DNA from: a virus
IMG/VR virus record: IMGVR_UViG_3300021961_007097
Coordinates: 1-30,101 of that record
Reading direction: 5' to 3' (one strand)
Length of the DNA: 30,101 bases
This document shows, piece by piece, positions 13,142 through 30,101 of the stretch (position 1 is its first letter; every line of letters begins with the position of its first letter). The notes under the pieces are model-generated. The model saw nothing but the letters and a program-made list of their open reading frames with translations, was not told where the DNA came from and made no database searches. Made by a program: the position numbers and the translations under genes.

Positions 13142-14545
13142 CTAAAAGTTGGTAGTAATACCTGTTAAAGTTTTTGTTAATTTCGACACAGTATCACTAT
13201 CTATTAAATATTTTCCACCACCAGAATTTCTTGGTAATACATTAAATCGTGAATGTATAGAAGTAGTCCATCCTTTACTAATGTCTATATTCTCCGTTAA
13301 TCCAAATAATTGGAATGCACCGTAGTCTTTATATGAATCAGATATTCTATCTACCCAGAAAATTTGTCCAATACGAAGCCCAGCAATACCAGGAATAGTT
13401 AAGTCTGCCGTAACTGATAATTTACCTGGTGTTCTCCATGCATGTGAGTAATTTGGATTCATCCCACCTTTGGTTGAATTTTGTGACATTTTATTTCGCA
13501 TATCGTCTGGATACATTTCAAATAATGACGATGCGATCAGCATAAGTTTTGCATCAGGAGAGAACGATCCTAATTTGTTATCCAAAATAGATTTTGTTTC
13601 TTGCGTTTGTTTTTCTTGTTTTTTAACCAAACTATCAATTAAAAATAAATCACCTTCCATATCAGGTCTATCTAAAGCAACCAAATAATCTATCGAACCA
13701 CTTTTACTATAGTCTATTCTTTTTAAATTTCCCAAATATGTACGATAATATTCACTGGCATTTGTTTGTGTATATAATACTTCTCGTTGGACTTCTATTG
13801 GTGCATTTTTAAATGGATTCTTGTAATTTTTTTCTAAATATGCCGTATAATTTTCTAGTGGTTGTTGTGGTATTGGATTTTGTACAGTTGGTGGTACAGG
13901 AGCGGGTGTATTTTTTGGTGGGGGAGTTGGTGATGAACCTTGTGCAACATTAGAACTTACTCCTAATGTGTCTGCATAATATTTAAATTTTTGTTGTCTA
14001 TCCGCCAATCCAATATCACCACCATTAACTGCTTTTGTTACTGCGGTAGTATCTGCAAAATTATTTACTCGTGGTCGTACTCTATCCTTCCAAAATACTT
14101 GTATAGCTACATCCGCAGCATACCGTGGATCCAATACCAAATCGGGATTATTTATCAGATCAATACCTAACTTTTTACCAACTGCTGCATAGTTAGCTTT
14201 TCCTGTGAGTTGTATGTACCCACGTCCTCTATATTTAAATCCATCACCAGGACTAGTATTACCCAAATCTTTTCTATTACCATATATAATTTCTGCCAAC
14301 GCTGCTCTATCTTTTCCACAACAAACTGCTTCTGCTGCAGCTCGTGACGAGAATTTTCTAGAAAAATTTTTCAAAAGAAAATCAGCACTATAATTTAACT
14401 TTTCATCTACCAATCTAAGACCAGATTCATGTTTAACTTGTGCTAATAATTGTGCAATTTCTAATGGATTGGTTATTCCCAGTGCTTCTGCACGATCTAC
14501 GAAAATTTTTTCTGAACTAGTTAATTTTGAAGTATTCATTGCCAT
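13142..14545 (-). CDS. baseplate hub-associated GH19 lysozyme/chitinase-fold protein
   Basis: A 467-residue two-part protein. Residues 1-200 form a glycoside hydrolase family 19 domain: KHESGL with the catalytic Glu at about 40, YRGRGYIQLTG (105-115) and a later VNGGDIG substrate-binding element. This family cleaves peptidoglycan or chitin. A Pro-rich linker (about 205-235, many PPP/PAP runs) leads to a C-terminal domain. Its end (ADLTIPGIAGLRIGQIFWVD, then FQLFGLTENIDISKGWTT) looks like the closing beta domain of hub proteins. It plays the role T4 gp5 plays: a cell-wall-cutting enzyme in the tail tip. The ATG at 14545 follows the upstream stop by one base. The hub assignment is inference; GH19 is solid. 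Confidence 0.85.
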   Translation of the reverse strand: MAMNTSKLTSSEKIFVDRAEALGITNPLEIAQLLAQVKHESGLRLVDEKLNYSADFLLKNFSRKFSSRAAAEAVCCGKDRAALAEIIYGNRKDLGNTSPGDGFKYRGRGYIQLTGKANYAAVGKKLGIDLINNPDLVLDPRYAADVAIQVFWKDRVRPRVNNFADTTAVTKAVNGGDIGLADRQQKFKYYADTLGVSSNVAQGSSPTPPPKNTPAPVPPTVQNPIPQQPLENYTAYLEKNYKNPFKNAPIEVQREVLYTQTNASEYYRTYLGNLKRIDYSKSGSIDYLVALDRPDMEGDLFLIDSLVKKQEKQTQETKSILDNKLGSFSPDAKLMLIASSLFEMYPDDMRNKMSQNSTKGGMNPNYSHAWRTPGKLSVTADLTIPGIAGLRIGQIFWVDRISDSYKDYGAFQLFGLTENIDISKGWTTSIHSRFNVLPRNSGGGKYLIDSDTVSKLTKTLTGITTNF

Positions 14546-14546
14546 A

Positions 14547-17135
14547 TTATCGTATTGCTCCCGGCGTACCACCGATTGCTACTGCATTCGCTGCTGGACC
14601 GATACCAGTGAAGGTAACTTGTGGGTTTACTACTGTATTTGGTGTTGTTGCCATTTTATTATCAAAAAGTGCTAGTAGTTCGTTTCTGCTGTTTTTTATA
14701 TTATCAAAAATTTGTTTCTGTTGTCTAACTATCTCTACTTTTGCCTTGGCTCGGAATTCTGCAGCGTTAGGACCGTCAACTTCAAATGCTGCTAGTTCTT
14801 TAGACTTTGCCCGATTAATAATTGCTTTTGATCGAAGTGATAGTGCATTTTTTATTGCGTCAATTTGGCCATTCGTTAAATCATCACTCGATATTCTAGA
14901 TGAAAAGCCTTGCGCTTCAATTTTTGTTAAAGGTCGTTGAATTATAAAAATTTCACCCAATACTTGTCGTGTGTTTGTAGGAAGTGTATTAAATCCACCA
15001 GCTTGTAATTGTTGTTGTATAGATGCACGAACACCATTATTTTCGTATAGTATACCCTTTAACGCAACTTCCACAAACTTATTAAGTGTATTAGTGTCCT
15101 GATTTGGTGGTGATTTTTTCTCTTCTTCTTTTTGTGTTGGTTTGTCTTTTCGTAGTAAATCAAATAACCGTGGTCCCATCAATGGGTTTCTTGCATATTG
15201 TAAATCTTTTCTATCTGGTGACCCAGAGGAGTTATTTAGTGCAGAGATTCCTAATTGTGATACTAATAGTTTTGGATAATCTGCGTTGATTCGTATATCC
15301 AATATTTCCGAACCTATAATTTGCTCATCAGCAGAAGGTTTATTTGGTAATTTCTTATTAAAGGTATAAATTGCTTGTGCTTCCTTTTTTGGTAATATTT
15401 TTAAGTTGTTGTCTACGATTCTAAAATTAGATAACTCTTCATCGTAAATTAAACTCAAATCCCAATATCCTTCGGTTGCTGCGTTAATCTTATTTAGTAA
15501 AGTTTCTATACCTTCGTGAATGGTTCGTGCTTCAAGAAACACTGCTTGAATTAATTTACTGTTAATCCATATACCAGATTTTGCCGTTGCAATACCAGAT
15601 GGATTTCCATCGGATTCTGGATTACCTTCTTCATTTACTTGCGTTAATTGGTTTGCTATTAATTTTGTTGTGGCTTTGGCAACTCGTAAAGATCCACTTG
15701 TGCTTAATTTCAAATTTTCACGGAATGATGATAACTTTGATGTACCGATATCTCTAAATGCTTTTCTATTAACTATTAAAACTGTAGAAGGATCTGTAGA
15801 TCGTAGTACTTCATTATATCCCACTTTTATAGGGTTTTTGTTTATATCTTCCAAATCTTCTAATAATTCTAAACTAAATTTTGAATCATTTTTGGTATCT
15901 ACCGAATTTACTACATTTAATGCACCATTTACAATAGATGCAACACCATTAACCGGGTCATTTAAAAAATAATTAATAAATCTATTCAGCGTAATATAGA
16001 ATGTTTGTTCTTGCCCCAAATCATTTGTTGGAGTACCACTTCCCGCTGCGGCGCTTGCACCATCTTTTTCCGCGGCATCATCTGGTTCATCAAATTTAAC
16101 TATTTCATCATCTGAGTCCGCACGAGAATCTAGTAAATATGTAAACTTTGATCGTGGTGCAAAATAATCACGAACAGAAGTTAAAAGAGTTTGATCCTTG
16201 TTAGCATTTTCGTCTTGTTGAAAATCTGGATTATTTGTTGCGTATGCGGAAATATACATGATGTTATCTGCCACACCATATGCGATTACTGTAACTTTGT
16301 ATTTGTTGTTTTCTATTACTGTTTTAACATTCGCTACTCGTGCGATAGAAAAATCATAATGATAGTTATTGGGTTTACAAAATGAATCAATAAACAAACT
16401 TCGTGCACCTTGCGACATACCACGACGACGAAGACCACCCGTAAACATTCCTGACCAGAAATTTAAAATAATTTCCGTATCTCTGACATTTTTATAATTT
16501 AATATATAATCTTTATTTAACCCTTTTTGTCCTTTGGGTGATGAGATAATATTTCCCCATTCTAATACACAACTCATACCAGGTGAAAATGCTAAAAATT
16601 CTAACATTTGTAATTGTTGCTGTGTGTAACATACCGCGTTTATGGTAAATTTTAATACATTACCATTTCGTAATCGTTCAACAGTTGCACTTTCGATCCC
16701 AGGTGGTGGATATCCATTTGGTGATTGAAATTTTTCAGACAGTCCGTTTGTATTTTTTTCGTAGGTTTTTACTAAAATTTGTTTTCCTTCGGTATAGGTT
16801 GTTCCTACTACCAATCCTTTATCTGCACGAGTTCCGTAGATATCGGAATCATTGTACGATTCATTATCCCACCCATGTAATCCTAGTGTAAAAAACTTAC
16901 AACCGGCATATCGATTTAAATCAAACGGGGAAATATAATCAAACGCTTCTCTAGCTCCGGCAGTATTTGCCAATTCGGTGTACCATTCTTTAGTAGGAAA
17001 TTCTACAGTAGTAGTGTATCGTAGAAATGGTGTTCGAATTTCTACCAATTCTGTTGATTTTCTTCTATTGTTTAATTCACTTTGTACATTTGCGTCAAAG
17101 ACATTAAATGTCTCATACGGAGAACGAGTTGCCAT
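14547..17135 (-). CDS. large baseplate hub-like virion structural protein
   Basis: An 862-residue protein in the tail module, placed between the gp53-like and the GH19/hub genes. It is mixed alpha/beta with no signal or membrane segments. Patches such as TVERLRNGNVLKFTINAVCYTQQQLQMLEFL followed by LAFSPGMSCVLEWG resemble large hub proteins of T4-like and jumbo myophages. A Ser/Gly/Ala-rich low-complexity stretch (DGASAAAGSGTPTNDLG) lies at about 355-370. The last 50 residues, with GPAANAVAIGGTPG, look disordered. Its position in the gene order fits a gp27-like hub or a fusion containing one, but I cannot match domains exactly. The start follows the upstream stop as TAATTTATG. Confidence 0.75.
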   Translation of the reverse strand: MATRSPYETFNVFDANVQSELNNRRKSTELVEIRTPFLRYTTTVEFPTKEWYTELANTAGAREAFDYISPFDLNRYAGCKFFTLGLHGWDNESYNDSDIYGTRADKGLVVGTTYTEGKQILVKTYEKNTNGLSEKFQSPNGYPPPGIESATVERLRNGNVLKFTINAVCYTQQQLQMLEFLAFSPGMSCVLEWGNIISSPKGQKGLNKDYILNYKNVRDTEIILNFWSGMFTGGLRRRGMSQGARSLFIDSFCKPNNYHYDFSIARVANVKTVIENNKYKVTVIAYGVADNIMYISAYATNNPDFQQDENANKDQTLLTSVRDYFAPRSKFTYLLDSRADSDDEIVKFDEPDDAAEKDGASAAAGSGTPTNDLGQEQTFYITLNRFINYFLNDPVNGVASIVNGALNVVNSVDTKNDSKFSLELLEDLEDINKNPIKVGYNEVLRSTDPSTVLIVNRKAFRDIGTSKLSSFRENLKLSTSGSLRVAKATTKLIANQLTQVNEEGNPESDGNPSGIATAKSGIWINSKLIQAVFLEARTIHEGIETLLNKINAATEGYWDLSLIYDEELSNFRIVDNNLKILPKKEAQAIYTFNKKLPNKPSADEQIIGSEILDIRINADYPKLLVSQLGISALNNSSGSPDRKDLQYARNPLMGPRLFDLLRKDKPTQKEEEKKSPPNQDTNTLNKFVEVALKGILYENNGVRASIQQQLQAGGFNTLPTNTRQVLGEIFIIQRPLTKIEAQGFSSRISSDDLTNGQIDAIKNALSLRSKAIINRAKSKELAAFEVDGPNAAEFRAKAKVEIVRQQKQIFDNIKNSRNELLALFDNKMATTPNTVVNPQVTFTGIGPAANAVAIGGTPGAIR

Positions 17136-19502: not shown

Positions 19503-21875
19503 TTATCGTGTCCGTAATGGTGTGCGTGCTTCATTTGCTGTCACATGTCCTACTTCATATCCATTCATTTCAATCTTCATACTGCGTATTGCAGTTATTA
19601 CTTGATCTAATTTTGCTTCCAATTTAGCAGTATCCACTTTGGATTCTATAGGTGCAGATGCAGCTATAGTTGTGGGCTTTACAGCGGCTGCTACAGATGT
19701 AACTTTAGTATTTGGTATAGGTGTGGTTGTTTCTGATGCAGTTTTTTCTGGTGATTTAAAAGTTGGTAATAATCCAATTTTTTGTAATCCACCAAGAACT
19801 GCTAGTCCTGGTGCCGCGGCTATAGCTGCAATTCCTAATGCAGTTAACCCCACTGCCATACTGGTTAGTGCAGGCCCCATCAATGCTAATATTCCAACTT
19901 GTCCGGCGTTTAATTGAGACAATGTAGTTATAAACTGACCAAATGTTGATAACCCAGGCGCCATGATTCGTAATGCAATTCCAAATGGAATTATTGATGC
20001 TCCAAGCGCAGCAATAGCCAATGCCCCAACTCCAACTTGTGGTGCGATAAAGGATAGTCCAAATGCTGCTACAGTAAGTACTCCCAACGCTACCGCTGCC
20101 TTACCCATATCAGACCAATTTACCATACTAAACTGTTGTAATCCTTTACCCAAAACATATACCGACGCCGCCACAACTAACATTGCTGCGGCACCTTGTA
20201 TTACTTTAGATTGACTAAACGATGCTGCACCACCAGCAACACCAGATAAACCACCACCTCCAACTAGACCAGTTGGTGGAACTGTTGGCGCTGGTGCGCC
20301 ACCCAGGCCAGGTAATAATCCTGTAATTCCTTTGCCACCTGTTATAATATTTTTCGCAAATCCAAGAGCTTTTAATCCTACGACTGCACCAGCCAACCCA
20401 CCCATAGCCGTTAAGATACCTTGTAATAATTCAACGGATCGTTCTAGATATCCCAATTGTTGTTCTTCAACGGTTTTTTCTTTTGGAGCTTGAGCGACAC
20501 CAGCAAGTTTTAATATAGTAGATTCATCAAATCCTGTGGTTTGTGTTAAGGCTAATCGTAGTTGTCTATTCGTTTGTAATTCTTCCCCCGTAATACCCGA
20601 AACACTTAATTGTTGTTGGAGAAGATTTTGTAAATCTTCTGTAGTACCTGTTGCTGCTACTTGTGCCAGTTGGTTGAAGTCCATCTCGACACCCAATGCA
20701 CTCAATTCAGCAAAGTTTTCCAATGATCCTTCAAAATCGCCAACAATACTATTCGCAAATTTTTCTATATCACGGAGATTAACACCAATTTTCCTAGATT
20801 CTGCCGCTGCACGGAATAATGACTCTGCGTATTTACCACCAGCGACTGCTAATAAATCTGCATTTTGTGCAGCAAATTGTATTGCATCAGCACCTGCCAA
20901 TCCTTGTTTTTGGAATTCTGCGATAGCTTTCTGGCGGACAACATCTTCAGCTGCACCTGTTCCCAAAAATGCTCGCTTTGCTTTTACATAATCTTCAGAC
21001 GATACACCGAGTCGTTTTGCCTCCCCAGCTATTTTTTCGGCTTCTGCCGGATCTAATATTGTTCCAAACTCTTTTTTGAAGTTTGCTGTTGCATTGATAA
21101 TTTCTTGGGTATCAAGAACAGGTCCATCTGTTAATCCTACCAATGATTTTGCTCTAGAAATCAATGCATTCCCGTATATACGAGATGCACTTCCTATTTG
21201 CACACCAACATCACTTTGTACTTTATAGATAGCTTCTCGTAAATCTCCGAATGCTTTTCCAAGTCGCATTGCTAATTCACCAAGAACTAACATTTTTCCA
21301 GCTGGAGTATTATTATTGAATAAATCTATTACATTTTTACTTCGTTTTAATGACGAAGATACCCTATTGAATTCTACCGCTGCGTTTTGTTGTTCTTGAT
21401 ATATTTCTGCTATTGCGGTTTGTAATTTAGAAGTTTCATTTACCTGGACCTGTATTGCCTCCTTCTGATCTTCTATAACTTGAGTTAGTCCTCTAGTTTG
21501 ACTAGCTTGGTCTTTTGCTGTTTTTGCTACATCTTTTAATTTAGTTGTTCCATCTTCGTTTGTATATGTATACTTTTTTGCGCCAGCAGCAACCGCCGCT
21601 AGCTGACTAGTTAAATTGGATTCTTTTGCTTGTAGTTCTCGTTGTTGACTTAACAATGCTCCTTGGTTAGTAGATAATTGAGCATTTAATGTAGATAACT
21701 TGCTACCAACATCGGATCCTTTATTTAACACAGCAACATGAGCTTGTACGGCTGATTGTAGATTTTTCAAATCGCTGTTTAAATTACCAGTATTTTGTGC
21801 CGCAGCAGTTAAATTTTTTATTGCTGCGTTTAAACTTGCCATTGAAGATTCTAATTCTTTATCGTAATCAGCCAT
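19503..21875 (-). CDS. 29: tail tape measure protein (gp29-like)
   Basis: A 790-residue protein with the build of a tape measure protein, which sets tail length and passes into the host envelope on infection. Residues 1-190 are coiled-coil-like, rich in Ala, Gln, Leu and Asn. The middle is helical. Residues about 480-720 form a long stretch of hydrophobic, Gly/Ala-rich segments (AAAMLVVAASVYVLGKG, VALGVLTVAAFGLSFIAP, ALTALGIAAIAAAPGLAVLG). A short C-terminal helix ends in polar residues. At roughly 0.15 nm per residue the tail would be about 115-120 nm. It lies just after the gp26-type chaperone and its frameshift extension, as tape measure genes do in many tailed phages. Confidence 0.88.
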   Translation of the reverse strand: MADYDKELESSMASLNAAIKNLTAAAQNTGNLNSDLKNLQSAVQAHVAVLNKGSDVGSKLSTLNAQLSTNQGALLSQQRELQAKESNLTSQLAAVAAGAKKYTYTNEDGTTKLKDVAKTAKDQASQTRGLTQVIEDQKEAIQVQVNETSKLQTAIAEIYQEQQNAAVEFNRVSSSLKRSKNVIDLFNNNTPAGKMLVLGELAMRLGKAFGDLREAIYKVQSDVGVQIGSASRIYGNALISRAKSLVGLTDGPVLDTQEIINATANFKKEFGTILDPAEAEKIAGEAKRLGVSSEDYVKAKRAFLGTGAAEDVVRQKAIAEFQKQGLAGADAIQFAAQNADLLAVAGGKYAESLFRAAAESRKIGVNLRDIEKFANSIVGDFEGSLENFAELSALGVEMDFNQLAQVAATGTTEDLQNLLQQQLSVSGITGEELQTNRQLRLALTQTTGFDESTILKLAGVAQAPKEKTVEEQQLGYLERSVELLQGILTAMGGLAGAVVGLKALGFAKNIITGGKGITGLLPGLGGAPAPTVPPTGLVGGGGLSGVAGGAASFSQSKVIQGAAAMLVVAASVYVLGKGLQQFSMVNWSDMGKAAVALGVLTVAAFGLSFIAPQVGVGALAIAALGASIIPFGIALRIMAPGLSTFGQFITTLSQLNAGQVGILALMGPALTSMAVGLTALGIAAIAAAPGLAVLGGLQKIGLLPTFKSPEKTASETTTPIPNTKVTSVAAAVKPTTIAASAPIESKVDTAKLEAKLDQVITAIRSMKIEMNGYEVGHVTANEARTPLRTR

Positions 21876-21883
21876 GTACTATC

Positions 21884-22027
21884 TCATTTAGACTTTTTCA
21901 ACTTCTCGTACTCTTTGTTTTCTTTTTCTACTGCATCATTCATTTGTTGTAAATAGAAGCCGCGCAAGAACACGGGCATATTATATAGTGTTTCAAATGT
22001 AAATCCACCTTTTCCATAATATACCAT
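21884..22027 (-). CDS. C-terminal extension of gp26 reached by +1 frameshift (gpT/gp51-like segment)
   Basis: A short frame that would encode 47 residues if started at the ATG at 22027: it begins MVYYGKGGFTFETLYNMPVF, then LRGFY and a charged Lys/Glu helix. The frame stays open upstream of that ATG, through GLTQEYRLNIHKIIFS, right back to the T-run in the end of gene 26. This indicates it is expressed as a continuation of gp26 rather than alone. The full fusion would be about 305 residues. The aromatic and MP-x-x-LR-x-FY pattern resembles the second half of tail assembly chaperones encoded just before tape measure genes. It ends eight bases before the tape measure ATG. Confidence 0.75.
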   Translation of the reverse strand: MVYYGKGGFTFETLYNMPVFLRGFYLQQMNDAVEKENKEYEKLKKSK

Positions 22028-22055
22028 GGAAAAAATGATTTTATGGATGTTTAAC

Positions 22056-22802
22056 CTATATTCTTGCGTCAGGCCAAAAAAAGTTAGCGCCGAGAGTCAA
22101 TGGAAGTGTATCACTATGTGAACACTTAGAACACACAAATGTAGTTTCAAATACTACATCCGGTGTAATTGTTTTATAAAATTCTCGTAATGCTCGACTA
22201 TCTTTGACCAACATGTTTTCTACTGTTTCACGAATAACCTTTGAATCAGATGAACCGTCCACTTCTGCGATAATATATCGTAATCTGGTAGTTGCTTCTG
22301 GTTCTACTTGTAATCCAACTTTCTTTATAGCGGTCAATTCCTTTTCAATATCTTTTTCTACCTTTCGTGTTAATAATTTAATTTTAATTGTTTTTCCACT
22401 AACAGGTAATTTAAATAATAAATCAGAATCTTGTGGAGTATCTTTAGTTTCCAATTGAGTTAAATCTACTGCGTGTGATTCATCTGACGAACACTTTGGA
22501 CAAGTCACTGATATATTATAATCTTTACCATATCCTAAAATTCTCGTGGCGACCATTACTGCGTTTAAATCACCAATTAACAAATCTTCGTGAGTCACAC
22601 CTTTTGTAACAATTAAACTATCCATTAATTTATCTAATACAACACCTTTTTGAATCAAGTTTTGTGAAGTCAAAATATCTTCTTCTTTGGCGGTCATATA
22701 TTTCAATTCAATCTGACCACTTGCTAATGGATGACCTGTTGGGTAGAACTTCCCTTTACTCGGTAAATCTACGATTTCCGTAGGGAATGTAACATTTGAC
22801 AT
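22056..22802 (-). CDS. 26: baseplate hub assembly protein gp26-like
   Basis: A 248-residue protein of the T4-like gp26 baseplate family. The N-terminus has FPTEIVDLPSKGKFYPTGHP and LKYMTAKEEDILTSQNLIQKG, which are characteristic of this group. Two CxxC pairs, CPKCSSDE (about 100-107) and CSKCSHSD (near 225), could form a zinc site. These proteins act as chaperones in assembly of the hub and tape measure. AAAGGAG is eight bases before the ATG at 22802. The zero-frame product ends NFFWPDARI at 22056. A +1 shift at the T-run would replace WPDARI with a 63-residue extension. It is followed, through that extension, by the tape measure gene. Confidence 0.85.
   Translation of the reverse strand: MSNVTFPTEIVDLPSKGKFYPTGHPLASGQIELKYMTAKEEDILTSQNLIQKGVVLDKLMDSLIVTKGVTHEDLLIGDLNAVMVATRILGYGKDYNISVTCPKCSSDESHAVDLTQLETKDTPQDSDLLFKLPVSGKTIKIKLLTRKVEKDIEKELTAIKKVGLQVEPEATTRLRYIIAEVDGSSDSKVIRETVENMLVKDSRALREFYKTITPDVVFETTFVCSKCSHSDTLPLTLGANFFWPDARI
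22074..22085 (-). promoter_or_regulatory. candidate +1 (or -2) ribosomal frameshift site
   Basis: On the minus strand the end of gene 26 reads AAC TTT TTT TGG, a run of seven T. Skipping one T moves the ribosome into the frame that stays open for 63 more codons to 21884. In the zero frame translation ends six codons later at TAG. A -1 slip would give a stop after two codons, so only +1 or -2 makes the long product. The other reading is a homopolymer error (true T6), which would fuse the two parts outright. Confidence 0.6.
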
Positions 22803-24925: not shown

Positions 24926-26398
24926 TTATACTTTTCTCTTGAATAGTTGTGCTACATCATCTTGTCTATGAATAACAGGTCCAGCGGGTTCCCACTCAAC
25001 ATCCAATCCCGTTAATTTCATCATATTGTCTATAGTTTTATACTTTACAGTCCAGTCACAAGTCAAATTAATCAAAATTAAATCGGTTTTTTCATATAAC
25101 TGTTGACGGAATGCTCTTGCTTTATCTGGTGATGTCTCCATCAAACGACCTGGCATAAGTAGTACTAGACTGTAATACTCTTCTTTCCAGTTTTGTAGAT
25201 CGAATATATCACCCATAGTGAATATACCCCAGTGTATATTTGTCGCTGCAGACATACATCGTTGACGATCCATTTCTACACCATGCGGAATTAAATCTTG
25301 TCTAGTTCCTACTACACGACCTAACAAGACTCCATTACCACATCCCAAATCCAGTACATTTCCAGAGGGAACATATTTCATATCACCGATAGCATCAATA
25401 ATTACTTCATGAAAATGATCCATTGCTTCCTTAAATCTAAATCCATTTTCTTCCCACAATGAAGTATCCTCCAATGATTTTTGGAAAGATTTTGTAGTAG
25501 TAATTGGTTTAATTTTAATTTTCTTTTCTGTGTATGGATACATAGTTCCCGACATTCCATCTTCAGGATATACGGCGTTATGTTTTTGAACAGTGTATTT
25601 CCAAGGCGTCATGTCTGTTCGTGAAGAAATCTTATTAATTGGTGTTTTAATTTCTGCAATACCGTGTAAAGCAGACCATTCCACGGGCCAAGATAATAAT
25701 TCATAAATCCAATCTACTTCTTCACCATACCCCAATTGACGACCCAATTCCGCCATTTTCATACCCATATCTTGTGTATGTGAGCAATTAAAAGAACATG
25801 GAAGATGTGATACTAATCGAACACCTTGCCATCTCCACAAAATATTACATTCTGGTGGGGTATCTTCTTTAATGTGTATGGTTCTAACATCATCCGTTAT
25901 TTGCATCTTATCTACTGACATTGGCCAAGTAGTGTCAACAAACTGTCGATTTATCCAGTTTTCTAAATAAAAATCAATACAACATTCTGGATATCCTAAT
26001 AACTCACCAACTCTTTTATTATTTAATGGTTTGGTGTTCCATAATGCATACCACTCTTTTGCTAATTCTTCGGTCTTTGTAAATACGACACGAAGCCGGT
26101 ATGGTTTACCTGGTTGGTATGGTTGTGATGTGGAAGAATATGTTGTGGTGACACCTTCTTTTGCTAAGGGTACGACCATAACACCATATTGTTTATATTC
26201 TTCAATCAGATTACTTAGTTCATTTGAATTAATAATATCCAATGTGCTTGGTCGTATATCATGAACAACCGACATTCGTTCGATGTGTTTCCATGCGGAA
26301 GATATCGAAGACAATATTTTTTCATACTTATGTTTATTTTCAATAGTGGTCCACTGTACTCGTGTCCAGTCTGGTAATACTGTATTTAGTCTTTGCAT
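24926..26398 (-). CDS. DUF483-like domain fused to a SAM-dependent methyltransferase
   Basis: A 490-residue two-domain protein. The N-terminal half resembles DUF483: LLGYPECC at 133-140 and LPCSFNCSHTQD at 199-210, giving four conserved cysteines that may bind a metal or Fe-S cluster. The C-terminal part (from about 325) is a class I Rossmann methyltransferase with VLDLGCGNGVLLG (348-360) for SAM binding and GVEMD at about 373-377, the acidic end of beta 2. It likely transfers a methyl group to an unknown target. It lies two genes downstream of the radical SAM gene, in the same run with an HADH-motif protein between, so it may act on the same substrate as the radical SAM enzyme (inference). 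Confidence 0.78.
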   Translation of the reverse strand: MQRLNTVLPDWTRVQWTTIENKHKYEKILSSISSAWKHIERMSVVHDIRPSTLDIINSNELSNLIEEYKQYGVMVVPLAKEGVTTTYSSTSQPYQPGKPYRLRVVFTKTEELAKEWYALWNTKPLNNKRVGELLGYPECCIDFYLENWINRQFVDTTWPMSVDKMQITDDVRTIHIKEDTPPECNILWRWQGVRLVSHLPCSFNCSHTQDMGMKMAELGRQLGYGEEVDWIYELLSWPVEWSALHGIAEIKTPINKISSRTDMTPWKYTVQKHNAVYPEDGMSGTMYPYTEKKIKIKPITTTKSFQKSLEDTSLWEENGFRFKEAMDHFHEVIIDAIGDMKYVPSGNVLDLGCGNGVLLGRVVGTRQDLIPHGVEMDRQRCMSAATNIHWGIFTMGDIFDLQNWKEEYYSLVLLMPGRLMETSPDKARAFRQQLYEKTDLILINLTCDWTVKYKTIDNMMKLTGLDVEWEPAGPVIHRQDDVAQLFKRKV

Positions 26399-26415
26399 AA
26401 CCTATTGGTTGAATA

Positions 26416-26784
26416 TCAAATATTGAGTTTACTCTTTTCTTCGGCAATAAGTTGTTGTAAAAATGATTTCCATTCCATATTTGCCGGAGTTTCTTGTTTT
26501 TCCGTATTATCAAGTGGACCAAATTGTGCTTCCCATGCACGACGATATTCACCAGTTTCATCTACATGGTCCGCGTGTTGGTTACCATTTTCATCAGTAA
26601 ACTTAAATTTTGGATGTTCCCCGTGTGATGGAATTTCTTGTACAGGTATTCCATCCAATACTCGAAATTCTTCTGGGAGTTCTATTAGTGCGCCAGATTC
26701 CCATAAATCTTTCACTACTTCAAATCGTTTTCCATACGCACCAGTAGTATCAATATGATCTGCGTGCAATCCATCCTTTTGCAT
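26416..26784 (-). CDS. small protein with two HADHxDxTGxY motifs
   Basis: A 122-residue hydrophilic protein without a known family. It carries two copies of HADHxDxTGxY: HADHIDTTGAY at 7-17 and HADHVDETGEY at 70-80. The same motif, HADHTDATGQY, ends the radical SAM protein encoded just upstream. The part between holds LPEEFRVLDGIPVQEIPSHG, and the C-terminus is a charged helix. The shared H-x-D-x-T core is also the repeat unit of the nearby fibre-like proteins. It could be a substrate, an adaptor carrying the same recognition motif, or a short virion component. The frame is confirmed by close packing: 17 bases before the methyltransferase gene and 21 bases after the radical SAM gene. Confidence 0.72.
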   Translation of the reverse strand: MQKDGLHADHIDTTGAYGKRFEVVKDLWESGALIELPEEFRVLDGIPVQEIPSHGEHPKFKFTDENGNQHADHVDETGEYRRAWEAQFGPLDNTEKQETPANMEWKSFLQQLIAEEKSKLNI

Positions 26785-26805
26785 AATACATTCCTCGTAA
26801 AATTA

Positions 26806-28107
26806 TTAAAGTTCTATACCAAATTTTTCAAAAAATTCTTTCTTGTACTGACCTGTTGCATCGGTATGATCGGCGTGGGGAGCTACGTGCCCAAGTTTCA
26901 TTCTATTTAACTGATTTGTTATATATCGTTCTATGTCAAATTTACCTTCTAAATGTCTGGTAATTTGTGTAATCCGTAATTCAACACCTTTACTAAATCC
27001 ATATAACATGATTTCTTCATATTTTTTTAAATCTGGATGTAGTGAAAATGGTTGTTGTCCTTTCTTCAACATTAATTTTTCATACATACTAAATAAGGTT
27101 TTCCAATTCAAACAAGTATCAGTTTTGTTACGCCAATCCATGTTAATTCCAGTGCCAGGACAATGCCCCTTACACATAAGGAAAAATCTGCATCCTTGAC
27201 AACCACCGTATTCTTCTGGGGTATGGTATAGTGCCAACTGTCGTTCATATCCATCATACTGTGCTTTAATCCAGTTAATACCATCTTTGTTTCCACGCCC
27301 ACAATTTGATTGGTTTCCCTGTGAGTCAATTCCTTGTACTGCGTGTGTAGTATACGGATCGCACGGACGAAAAGTACATGTTGCCGTGTCATCATTCATA
27401 TTCATCATAACATCGATGTCACGGAATAAATCAAAAGTAAATTTTCCTTTTAATTCCGTTAATTCAAATTCCCACATATCTAGTAGAAATTCTACATTTT
27501 GTTCAGGGGTAAGTGCTAATGTTTCTCCCACCTGACTATGATCAATTTCCAATGGATGTAGTCTTGCACCATCAACACCCCAAGATCGTAATTCACGAAT
27601 CCAATTCTTAAATCGTTCACGGTATTTTGGTAATCCATTCTTTTTATGGATCGTGATAATTAAACCCATTGAAATTTTTTCTTGATGCAATCTCTTTATA
27701 GCATCCATAGATTTTTTTGTTAATTCACGAGTTTTTTCCAATGATCCAGCCCATCTGGTATCATTCATTTCATCAGGTCCATCTACCGATACACCCACAT
27801 GTACTTTATATTTTTTAAACATTTCAATATGTCGATCTGTAATTAAAGTACCGTTGGTTTGAATACCGTTTCCACCGTACTGTTCAAATCCCCATTTAAA
27901 AATAGTTTCTAAATCATCAATATCAGTTAATAATGGTTCACCACCAAATATAATAAATTGCCCACCTTCTCGTTCTAATCCCTTTAACATTTTTTCAACA
28001 GAATATGTTTTATGACGGAAATTACCCGCGTCACGCATGGGATGTTCGTAACAATACGGACAACTTAAATTACATACTACACCAACTGGTTCCAATTCAA
28101 TTGTCAT
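26806..28107 (-). CDS. radical SAM/SPASM enzyme (peptide maturase-like)
   Basis: A 433-residue radical SAM protein. The cluster-binding motif is C-NLS-C-PY-C at 12, 16 and 19 (CX3CX2C). FGGEPLL and GVSVDGP are the usual SAM-binding and barrel strands. The C-terminal third has a SPASM/twitch cysteine set (CGRGN, CQGCRFFLMCKGHCPG, then DTC), as in anSME and peptide-modifying enzymes, for auxiliary Fe-S clusters. The last 25 residues carry HADHTDATGQY, a motif shared with the small downstream protein and close to the fibre repeats. A strong promoter and a leader of about 27 bases precede the ATG at 28107. Substrates are unknown; peptide modification is inferred from SPASM and context. Confidence 0.9.
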   Translation of the reverse strand: MTIELEPVGVVCNLSCPYCYEHPMRDAGNFRHKTYSVEKMLKGLEREGGQFIIFGGEPLLTDIDDLETIFKWGFEQYGGNGIQTNGTLITDRHIEMFKKYKVHVGVSVDGPDEMNDTRWAGSLEKTRELTKKSMDAIKRLHQEKISMGLIITIHKKNGLPKYRERFKNWIRELRSWGVDGARLHPLEIDHSQVGETLALTPEQNVEFLLDMWEFELTELKGKFTFDLFRDIDVMMNMNDDTATCTFRPCDPYTTHAVQGIDSQGNQSNCGRGNKDGINWIKAQYDGYERQLALYHTPEEYGGCQGCRFFLMCKGHCPGTGINMDWRNKTDTCLNWKTLFSMYEKLMLKKGQQPFSLHPDLKKYEEIMLYGFSKGVELRITQITRHLEGKFDIERYITNQLNRMKLGHVAPHADHTDATGQYKKEFFEKFGIEL

Positions 28108-28140
28108 GTAAATAAAACCTCGTTTAATAAATCAAAATAT

Positions 28141-28169
28141 AATATACTTATTTAACATTAGTTTGTCAA
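28141..28169 (-). promoter_or_regulatory. sigma70-type promoter for the radical SAM-methyltransferase genes
   Basis: On the minus strand, TTGACA (28164-28169) is followed after exactly 17 bases by TATATT (28141-28146), a perfect -35 and a five-of-six -10. The predicted transcription start is near 28134, about 27 bases before the radical SAM ATG. The -35 overlaps the TGA stop of the Cys-rich fibre gene. This gives the enzyme genes a start independent of the upstream fibre genes. Confidence 0.7.
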
Positions 28170-28711
28170 GCCCCAACCAATACAGGTTGATCACTATGTG
28201 GTGTAGTTGCATCACTATGACTTGCTGGTGTGGTACCATCGTTATGCGCAGTTGTTGCGTTTGTGTGACTTGCTACTGTAGTACCGTCACTGTGTGGTGT
28301 GGTTGCATTACTGTGACTTGGTGATGTACTTCCATCACTGTGCGGTGTGGTTCCATCGCTGTGACTTCCAGGAGTAGTTCCGTCACTATGTGCTGATGTG
28401 GCGTTTGCATGCGACGCTGGACTATATGAATTACTATGCCCAGTATAAACATTATCATGCGGTATATAATAATCCCCATGTATGGCGCTGCATGAACCCG
28501 CATAATAAGACAAACACCCATTATTCATAACATATTTAGAAACACCATTATTGTACATGCCGGTATATGTTACAGGATTAGTACACGATGAATCATAATA
28601 ATATTGACAACCACAGGGTTGAGAACAATTATACCACATACAGGTATCTTTCGGTGCGTTACAATCATCAGAAAACGACCAACAATTAACTCCATTTGCA
28701 CTTGAACACAT
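28166..28711 (-). CDS. Cys-rich N-terminus with His-Asp repeat fibre-like protein
   Basis: A 181-residue protein in two parts. Residues 1-75 hold ten cysteines (2, 10, 17, 24, 29, 33, 35, 43, 66, 74) with many Tyr and Asn, suggesting disulfides or metal sites. Residues 92-172 are H-x-[D/N] repeats in 16-residue units of the form H-x-N-A-T-T-x-H-S-D-G-T-T-x-A-S. The chain ends PHSDQPVLVGA, a cap shared with the gene at 29394. No signal peptide or membrane segment is seen. It is probably an external fibre or spike component. The ATG at 28711 has AGGAG about ten bases upstream. Function is not known. Confidence 0.75.
   Translation of the reverse strand: MCSSANGVNCWSFSDDCNAPKDTCMWYNCSQPCGCQYYYDSSCTNPVTYTGMYNNGVSKYVMNNGCLSYYAGSCSAIHGDYYIPHDNVYTGHSNSYSPASHANATSAHSDGTTPGSHSDGTTPHSDGSTSPSHSNATTPHSDGTTVASHTNATTAHNDGTTPASHSDATTPHSDQPVLVGA
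28169..28411 (-). repeat. five tandem 16-residue H-x-[D/N] repeats (Cys-rich fibre protein)
   Basis: Each unit is 48 bases and encodes two His-containing heptad-like elements, H-x-[N/D]-A-T-T-x and H-[S/N]-D-G-T-T-x-x-S. Histidines recur with spacings of mostly 7 and 9. The last unit runs into the PVLVGA cap. The units differ at several codons, so this is an old protein repeat rather than a fresh DNA duplication. It is not a CRISPR array, because it is in frame and coding throughout. Confidence 0.85.
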
Positions 28712-28716
28712 ATTAA

Positions 28717-28797
28717 TTATACTCCTATATTATTATCAGTTGAAAACATGATAAACGGTCTAATTGGAATGTGCTGATAGACGATCCCATACTTCAT
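28717..28797 (-). CDS. possible very small ORF (26 residues)
   Basis: A 26-codon frame starting at an ATG that overlaps the stop of the fibre gene at 28794 (ATGA). It begins MKYGIVYQHIPIRPFIMF and ends near GIGV-like residues before TAA. The AGGAG site of the next gene lies around its end. Coupling by overlap is the only support; it may be chance. If not translated, this 82-base gap is just the leader of the Cys-rich fibre gene. Confidence 0.25.
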   Translation of the reverse strand: MKYGIVYQHIPIRPFIMFSTDNNIGV

Positions 28798-29387
28798 GGA
28801 GTATAGTAATTGGTATGTGATTGCGGACTATCACCATGTCCCCCATAATTACTATGGTTGGGTGAGCTATATCCATTTCCATGACTTGCCGCTACATTAC
28901 TGTGACTTGCTGGTGTAGTTCCATCACTATGACTTGCCGCGATATTTATATGACTTGCTGGTGTGGTTCCATCACTATGACTCGCTGCGATATCCGTATG
29001 ACTTGCTGGCGTTGTTCCATCACTATGACTTGCTGCTATATCCGTGTGGCTAGGATTTGTTGTTGCGTCGGTGTGACTCGCTGCAACATCCGTGTGGCCA
29101 CGGCGCTTACTAGTATTAGTAGAAATCCAATGCCAAAAAGTACTCTCTACCCACACTGATCCTTGTTTTGCACCAGCTACAATTCCTAGATCCGTACTTA
29201 CAATGTATCGGTCCACTCCCGACTGATCTATGTAATGGAAATCATTTCCATCAATCCAAATAGAACCGGGTTTAGCTCCTACAGGACTACCAACAGAAGT
29301 ACCTGTGTAATAGTACTCTGTTCCTGTTCCATCTACAAAGTGAAAGTTGGATCCGCTTATCCAAATACTACCTATTGTTTTTGGCAT
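28794..29387 (-). CDS. fibre-like protein: GSIW beta repeats plus His-Asp repeats
   Basis: A 197-residue protein. The N-terminal part has three copies, 35 residues apart, of a G-S-[I/V]-W-x-x-x-x-x-[F]-H-[F/Y/W]-[V/I] unit (residues 6, 41 and 76), which look like beta hairpins. A basic KRRG links to residues 98-169: four and a half copies of a 16-residue repeat, H-T-D-I-A-A-S-H-S-D-G-T-T-P-A-S. The end (NHSNYGGHGDSPQSH) is His/Gly-rich and lacks the PVLVGA cap. It is probably a tail fibre, whisker or capsid-decorating fibre. It is the middle of three related genes and is adjacent (six bases) to the larger paralogue. Confidence 0.78.
   Translation of the reverse strand: MPKTIGSIWISGSNFHFVDGTGTEYYYTGTSVGSPVGAKPGSIWIDGNDFHYIDQSGVDRYIVSTDLGIVAGAKQGSVWVESTFWHWISTNTSKRRGHTDVAASHTDATTNPSHTDIAASHSDGTTPASHTDIAASHSDGTTPASHINIAASHSDGTTPASHSNVAASHGNGYSSPNHSNYGGHGDSPQSHTNYYTP
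28881..29096 (-). repeat. 4.5 tandem 16-residue repeats in the middle fibre protein
   Basis: Units of 48 bases encode HTDVAASHTDATTNPS, two copies of HTDIAASHSDGTTPAS and HINIAASHSDGTTPAS, then half a unit. Two neighbouring units have identical protein sequence, so recent unequal exchange is likely. Histidine spacing alternates 7 and 9, and almost every His is followed after one residue by Asp or Asn. Confidence 0.88.
29058..29258 (-). repeat. duplicated GSVW-KRRG-HTD block (copy 1; copy 2 at 29901-30101)
   Basis: Two blocks of equal length (201 bases, 67 codons) encode nearly the same protein: F-H-Y-I-D-Q, DRYIVSTDLG, GAK-x-GSVW, ESTFWHWIST, KRRGHTDVAASHTDATT. The second copy reaches the window edge. 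This marks the two fibre genes as paralogues made by a local duplication or recombination of the N-terminal module. Confidence 0.85.
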
Positions 29388-29393
29388 AATATA

Positions 29394-30101
29394 TTAGACC
29401 CCAACTAACACAGGTTGATCACTATGTGGTGTGGTTGCATCACTATGACTTGCGGTGGTAGTGCCGTCACTGTGTGGTGTGGTTGCATCCGTATGTGGTG
29501 TTGTTGCGTTTGTATGACTTGCTATGATATTACTGTGTGATGCCGCAATATTAGTGTGCGAACCAGGAGTGGTTGCATTAATATGCGGTTGTCCACCAGT
29601 ATAATCATCGTGGAACGGAGCATTACCGTGAGGATTACTTTCATCACCATGGAAAATTAGATCTTCATGAAATATTCCAGGAATGACATAATTTGCGTGT
29701 TCATTGTAATCAGAATGTGTAGTAAGATAGACATCATCGTGTCCTGAGACATTGTTGTGAGGTGCATTATAATTGGCGTGACTTCCATTTGTAGTAGCAT
29801 CACTATGCGATGTTGTGCCATCACTATGTGCCGTAGTTGCGTTCGTATGACTTGCTAATATATCATTGTGACTTGCTACGATATTTGTATGACTTGCGGG
29901 TGTTGTTGCGTCGGTATGGCTTGCAGCAACATCGGTGTGCCCACGGCGTTTATTTGTTCCCGTAGAAATCCAATGCCAGAAAGTGCTTTCTGCCCACACT
30001 GATCCTGGTTTTGCTCCCGTTACTGCACCCAAGTCAGTACTGACAATGTATCGGTCCACTCCTAATTGATCAATATAATGGAAATCGTTGGTATCGACCC
30101 A
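29394..30101 (-). CDS. fibre-like protein with H-x-[D/N] repeats (5' end outside window)
   Basis: The frame is open to the window edge, so the true start lies beyond 30101; the GTG at 30059 is internal. The visible part begins with the end of a GSIW-type beta repeat (W-V-D-T-N-D-F-H-Y-I-D-Q, then DRYIVSTDLG) and another repeat ending ESTFWHWIST. It continues through KRRG into about 180 residues in which some two dozen H-x-[D/N] motifs recur every 6-10 residues, with no other domain. The C-terminus PHSDQPVLVGV matches the Cys-rich fibre protein. The function is probably virion fibre or host contact. The next gene starts six bases after its stop. Confidence 0.75.
   Translation of the reverse strand, partial: WVDTNDFHYIDQLGVDRYIVSTDLGAVTGAKPGSVWAESTFWHWISTGTNKRRGHTDVAASHTDATTPASHTNIVASHNDILASHTNATTAHSDGTTSHSDATTNGSHANYNAPHNNVSGHDDVYLTTHSDYNEHANYVIPGIFHEDLIFHGDESNPHGNAPFHDDYTGGQPHINATTPGSHTNIAASHSNIIASHTNATTPHTDATTPHSDGTTTASHSDATTPHSDQPVLVGV
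29397..29939 (-). repeat. long irregular H-x-[D/N] repeat tract
   Basis: About 24 motifs such as HTD, HSD, HTN, HAN, HED, HGD and HDD, spaced mostly 7 or 9 residues apart and sometimes 6, 8 or 10. The ends of the tract use the regular A-T-T-P-H-S-D-G-T-T wording; the middle (HEDLIFHGDESNPHGNAPFH) has diverged but kept the His and acidic or amide positions. That conservation suggests these residues matter for function. Confidence 0.85.

Follow-up and report, generated by a model that had tools for sequence, protein, structure and literature searches.

A conserved and most likely programmed +1 frameshift in a viral tail assembly chaperone gene of the gp26/gp51 type

Tail assembly chaperone genes are reportedly decoded with a -1 frameshift, an observation attributed to Xu et al. 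2004, and -2 frameshifting is said to occur in phage Mu. The -1 chaperone frameshift of most long-tailed phages, including that of lambda gpG/gpGT, has been reviewed (PMC5009743). A +1 chaperone frameshift has been proposed for the HF1-group haloviruses and HSTV-2 (PMC7230728, PMC5009743), with TTT_CGC as the proposed site in the HF1 group (PMC7230728), and +1 shifting is known in bacteria at UUU_U and CUU_U, as in release factor 2 (PMC5009743). For T4-like phages, gp26 and gp51 have been described as tail assembly chaperones by Vladimirov, Gautam and Davidson (2022), as relayed by PMC10885494 and PMC12846349; citing that work, the former mentions a short gene together with a fused long gene in some T4-like phages, and the latter mentions polyT -1 signals. 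As conveyed by these citing papers, short and long T4-like chaperones are thus already published, so that gp26 and gp51 as chaperones are not new. Our literature search, with most subscription papers outside its range, found no paper on a +1 branch in the gp26 family.

We analysed a 30,101-nt stretch of DNA from a bacterial virus (positions 1 to 30,101 of IMG/VR record IMGVR_UViG_3300021961_007097), hereafter the window. The gene at 22056..22802 (-) is preceded by a Shine-Dalgarno sequence AAAGGAG (-8.2 kcal/mol) and encodes, in frame 0, a 248-aa short form (TAC-N) ending in ANFFWPDARI. In a profile search the frame-0 product matches PF12322 (T4_baseplate, gp26/gp51) with an E-value of 2.8e-14 and 53.8 bits, well above the curated cut-off of 24.5, and it also matches the baseplate hub family phrog_150 (E 7e-18). 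By these profiles it is a T4 gp26-type protein, and its kinship is with T4 gp26 and gp51 as a pair, a refinement of the first-pass annotation, which had not named this relationship. A near-identity search among phages gave no match to the window locus.

Near its end, frame 0 reads GCT AAC TTT TTT TGG CCT GAC GCA AGA ATA TAG, with the stop at 22056-22058. The first-pass annotation had the gene ending at AAC TTT TTT TGG; these codons are present, but frame 0 runs six codons beyond TTT TTT before it stops, and what had been taken as a run of six T is a run of seven (22076..22082 (-), AAC TTT TTT T|GG). Codon conservation, synonymous constraint and avoidance of one preceding base mark this run as the putative shift site. 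When one base is skipped after TTT TTT, the reading continues as GLTQEYRLNIHKIIFSMVYYGKGGFTFETLYNMPVFLRGFYLQQMNDAVEKENKEYEKLKKSK, a 63-aa extension at 21887-22075 with a TGA stop at 21884-21886 (21884..22075 (-) in frame +1, stop included). Both frames are open over 41 nt (22056..22096 (-)). The segment proposed earlier, 21884-22073, is indeed coding, but its shifted frame starts at 22075; read from 22073, it gives the frame-0 tail and then stops. The predicted fusion is a 305-aa long form (TAC-NC, gp26 plus a gp51-type tail) spanning 21884..22802 (-).

The extension stops eight bases ahead of the ATG of a 790-aa ORF (19503..21875 (-)), as had been claimed, and this ORF is a probable tape measure gene by its position and length, with only a weak match to phrog_5218. 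In immuto, SP-15 and LIS04, the gene in the slot after the chaperone carries a tape measure annotation. The gene order of relatives is sheath, tube, gp26-type gene and long ORF, which places the gene between tube and tape measure; in the window, a helicase rather than a tube gene precedes it, and the long ORF follows. Elsewhere in the window, a chitinase class I (GH19) domain is present in a 476-aa protein of the tail region (13142-14572 (-)), possibly a tail-associated lysozyme. A further cluster at 24926-30101 (-) looks like a peptide-modification cassette. It comprises a DUF483 plus methyltransferase protein (24926-26398), a 122-aa ORF with HADHxDxTGxY repeats (26416-26784), a motif that recurs at the C-terminus of the radical SAM protein, the radical SAM gene itself (26806-28107; PF04055, E 2.5e-16), and three adjoining ORFs made up of short His/Asp/Ser repeats (28166-28711, 28794-29387 and 29394-30101).

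The short form was found in 80 viral contigs, 79 of which extend to the shift site, and in all 79 the extension overlaps the end of frame 0 at the same place, so that the extension in the shifted frame is real. A tblastn search with the extension also found it at the same place in Microcystis phage Mel-JY01 (E 8e-11) and Flavobacterium phage immuto (2e-5). Together with the window, these form a set of 82 sites. The comparison with homologues that the first-pass annotation had called for shows that every one of the 82 keeps an overlapping extension in another frame, 79 in +1 and 3 in -1. Extension frames were assigned by similarity; frame choice by ORF length alone misplaced four loci (L019, L025, L026 and L067), all of which read as +1 once similarity was combined with a reading of truncated ends. 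The extension is conserved, as the first-pass annotation had required: past the overlap its median pN/pS is 0.31, and it carries a YxMPxxLR motif in which Tyr is kept in at least 90% and Pro and Arg are invariant. These values indicate that purifying selection acts on the extension at the level of sequence. The earlier alternative that a homopolymer sequencing or assembly error had split one gene into halves takes its appeal from the single long T run, and can be practically discounted, as the offset is kept at 79 +1 loci, two isolate genomes among them, and in variants without seven T.

The second frame-0 codon of the site is TTT in 76/82 and CTT in 3/82, while TTC is found only in the three -1 loci. 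[C/T]TT followed by T therefore describes 79/79 of the +1 loci. In the three -1 loci, L008 (2534-2549), L010 (3473-3488) and L011, the heptamer A AAT TTC lies at the same two residues. Two of these are distinct; they form one clade (100/100) within the +1 tree, with a placement support of 93/87 that is moderate and not decisive. On the basis of this tree, shifting appears to have reversed, from +1 to -1, inside one clade. More widely, a +1 extension was found in nine genomes that are not among the contigs (Mel-JY01, immuto, LR756508, RM378, GXN1, GiJojo, LuckySocke, SP-15 and LIS04), at sites of TTT then T or C, or TTT TTT A. The extension of XacN1, RAS14, PA5oct, Atu_ph07 and LR756511 is in -1, at T TTT TTY. 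Protein scans of viral contigs with SP-15, RM378 and XacN1 recovered at most their own records.

Selection can be read from the site itself. Along gp26, synonymous codons are identical about 1.0 times as often as expected; from codon 240, the Asn that precedes the two Phe, to the stop, the ratio rises to 1.4-2.6. The Pro codon is CCT in 82/82 compared with 34% elsewhere in these genes; its T is needed for the +1 frame to read Leu there. The T run is at least seven long in 71/79 +1 loci, and the base before it is C, G or A and never T (0/79, vs 43.4 expected; p 5e-28, with loci treated as independent). The absence of T ahead of the run means that the -1 heptamer T TTT TTT is avoided, and since this base would lie outside the dual-coded stretch were the shift to come later, its avoidance points to selection on the shift itself.

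We next consider the extension as a protein. T4 gp26 and gp51 both belong to PF12322 (E 8.8e-64 and 3.9e-52); T4 gp26 terminates just after its FF (EFFELL), and gp51 runs about 50 residues further. Aligned by hhalign, 64 clade extensions and 50 gp51-type tails gave a probability of 94.9 and a score of 40.0, with a top score of 16.5 among 60 column-shuffled control profiles. The long form thus carries a gp51-type C-terminal tail, and this profile comparison makes the extension a homologue of the tail at the C-terminus of T4 gp51. Searched on its own, the extension gives a weak match to phrog_634, 'baseplate hub assembly catalyst' (E 0.013). When the clade profile was aligned pairwise by hhalign to single T4 sequences, the result was uninformative (probabilities 16 and 6); the evidence for a relation to T4 comes from PF12322, phrog_150 and the tail profiles. 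With this homology, the two frames, their conservation and dual coding are demonstrated at the sequence level. Structure prediction was performed on the short form and the tail separately, giving a short-form model with a pLDDT of 93.7 and a three-helix tail with a pLDDT of 93.6. Realignment to 299 PDB chains ranked YqbN first (Z 5.7), followed by the HK97 tail assembly chaperone (Z 5.2), with the third at 2.6; the YqbN/HK97 match covers residues 3-95 (93 of 248), and its Z below 8 falls short of proving a shared fold. We take YqbN to be a relative of XkdN-like chaperones. A sequence search of solved structures found nothing, Foldseek against the PDB gave no match at E ≤0.001, and the tail model had no significant viral structural match.

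The best explanation of the locus is, very probably, a tail assembly chaperone of the gp26/gp51 family, in the style of lambda G/GT, expressed through a programmed +1 shift at [U/C]UU_U, much as the first-pass annotation had proposed. The sequence arrangement of a G/GT-type gene is present: an overlapping second ORF in another frame, conserved, with a competent slip site. We infer the ribosome as the agent, the exact P-site codon, the ratio of short to long form and the role of the products. In the proposed mechanism, most ribosomes would stay in frame 0, and the 248-aa short form would be their product. Some would slip one base forward while tRNA-Phe sits on TTT in the P site and the A site holds TGG; the tRNA would re-pair with the next TTT, and reading would resume at GGC CTG ACG, adding the 63-residue helical tail homologous to the gp51 C-terminus. 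The predicted junction peptide is, for example, ...GANFFGLTQEYR. At the CTT loci tRNA-Leu would make the same forward slip. Either Phe codon could occupy the P site in most loci, and only the second in L002, L012, L027 and L044; [C/T]TT T is most simply read as a one-base forward slip in the P site. If the parallel with lambda gpG/gpGT holds, the tape measure protein would be coated by many copies of the short form and a few of the long one. The long form would draw in tail tube subunits through its tail, and both forms would be gone by the time the tail is complete.

Polymerase slippage and a -2 shift both fit worse than the +1 shift. In the former, the phage or host RNA polymerase would make mRNA with six or eight T-run residues, and the fusion would be read unshifted. 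The same fusion product would result, and runs of at least seven T at most +1 loci would suit it. Yet the extension is retained at six loci with T runs of four or fewer, at TTC TTTT (L002, L012, L027) and TTT CTTT (L031, L078, L083), distant relatives have TTT C, and slippage does not need a non-T base before the run, where T is never found. We regard it as highly improbable. For -2 ribosomal frameshifting into the same frame the chance is very slim: re-pairing from TTT to TTT two bases back would be possible at the T7 sites, but at TTC TTT T or GCT TTT T (four loci) the tRNA would meet TCT or CTT, where a +1 slip meets TTT.

It is scarcely credible that translation of the extension starts on its own, as a small gene of the kind annotated as gp51 in cyanophages. 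Some relatives have in-frame start codons close to the extension start, and gp51 is annotated from an ATG in cyanophage records. Against this, the search for a separately started second gene that the first-pass annotation had suggested found no ATG, GTG or TTG through residue 12 of the extension frame in 36/82, and an ATG by residue 3 in merely 13/82. Dual coding starts at the FF codons, and the sole early ATG in the window lacks Shine-Dalgarno pairing (+1.6 kcal/mol vs -8.2 for gene 26). In the cyanophage set, 35/80 have no ATG in the first nine extension codons. The claim of a frameshift therefore survives this search. Shine-Dalgarno-like pairing was seen at 20 of the 46 loci that have a candidate start. 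A Shine-Dalgarno-like sequence (GGGGAGGAA type) is also enriched 28-40 nt upstream of the +1-clade site (e.g. L082:3455-3470); it is probably too distant to influence the shift and may reflect protein sequence or internal initiation. Taken with the pairing at 20/46 loci, this enrichment suggests that internal initiation could yield a free extension in some relatives.

Returning to the +1 shift, a GC-rich structured stretch just upstream of the site (22083..22130 (-)) was identified from clade-wide GC3 and MFE and is a possible stimulator. GC3 over the 48 nt that precede the site is 0.45 in the +1 clade, vs 0.20. Upstream folding compared with recoded versions gave a mean z of -1.67 under gene codon usage and -0.64 under local usage, with controls at -0.1 to -0.2. 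The signal is weak in the window itself and modest clade-wide under local codon usage, and on the downstream side of the +1-clade site there is a weak stem (mean z -0.87). The upstream structure, a correlation within the clade, may act as a stimulator from behind the ribosome.

A related arrangement is seen in other viruses. In P-SSM2, S-PM2, HTVC008M and KVP40 there is one PF12322 gene only, and its extension, in the -1 frame at T TTT TTC or T TTT TTT, is annotated as a separate gp51. As in the window, these cyanophages, the pelagiphage and KVP40 thus have one PF12322 gene and a gp51-like ORF overlapping its end; unlike in the window (+1), the gp51-like ORF is in the -1 frame. T TTT TTC is invariant in 80/80 S-PM2-type contigs. 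Downstream of their sites lies a strong stem (mean z -2.41), which is what -1 shifting would lead one to expect, and upstream there is no signal. The canonical -1 heptamer XXXYYYZ is found in the cyanophage set and in L008, L010 and L011; in the window the extension is in +1 and C precedes TTT TTT. In L113, L114, L119, L120 and L121-L200, which are such genomes, the 'gp51' frame extends without a stop back over T TTT TTC (or T TTT TTT). Judging from their frames and sites, the 'gp51' of cyanophage-type viruses, the pelagiphage and KVP40 is probably a -1 extension of gp26.

Apparently new are, within the gp26 family, a large +1 branch, the reversal between +1 and -1 nested in it, and the -1 site shared by all 80 cyanophage-type relatives that were examined. 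Tentatively, we propose a view of the family in which the two-Phe junction may be the shift site in nearly every gp26 lineage, with its direction free to flip. A large aquatic branch would be fixed in +1 at [C/U]UU_U with upstream structure and heptamer avoidance; the cyanophage type, KVP40 and several jumbo phages would use -1, the cyanophage type with structure ahead; and the T4 genes would be a frozen duplicate of a frameshifting ancestor. Annotation would be corrected across the whole family: what is labelled 'hypothetical' or 'gp51 baseplate hub assembly catalyst' after gp26 is a small ORF that most likely encodes the tail of a fused chaperone.

Overall, comparison of the sequences indicates that the locus most likely holds a real, conserved programmed +1 frameshift in a tail assembly chaperone gene of the gp26/gp51 type. 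It resembles the arrangement proposed for the haloviruses in having +1 at a TTT codon near the end of a short chaperone gene; those viruses differ in being archaeal and in their proposed site, TTT_CGC, and the likeness is one of site. As at the CUU_U of prfB, the window site, with TTT T, would re-pair the P site one base forward on [C/U]UU_U. Unlike prfB, which has a stop codon in the A site, the A-site codon is TGG in the window, and TGG, TAC or TTC across the loci, and a fixed adjacent Shine-Dalgarno sequence is not clear in the window. Like lambda gpG/gpGT, one gene would give a short and a long form through a shift near its 3' end, beside the tape measure gene; unlike lambda, the shift is +1 rather than -1, and the product is a gp26-type protein with CxxC pairs rather than a gpG sequence. 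The closest likeness in the proteins themselves is to T4, where gp26 ends in ...EFFELL as the window short form ends in ...NFFWPDARI, and the gp51 tail corresponds to the extension. T4 uses two separate genes on opposite strands with no frameshift, whereas the window would make both forms from one gene.
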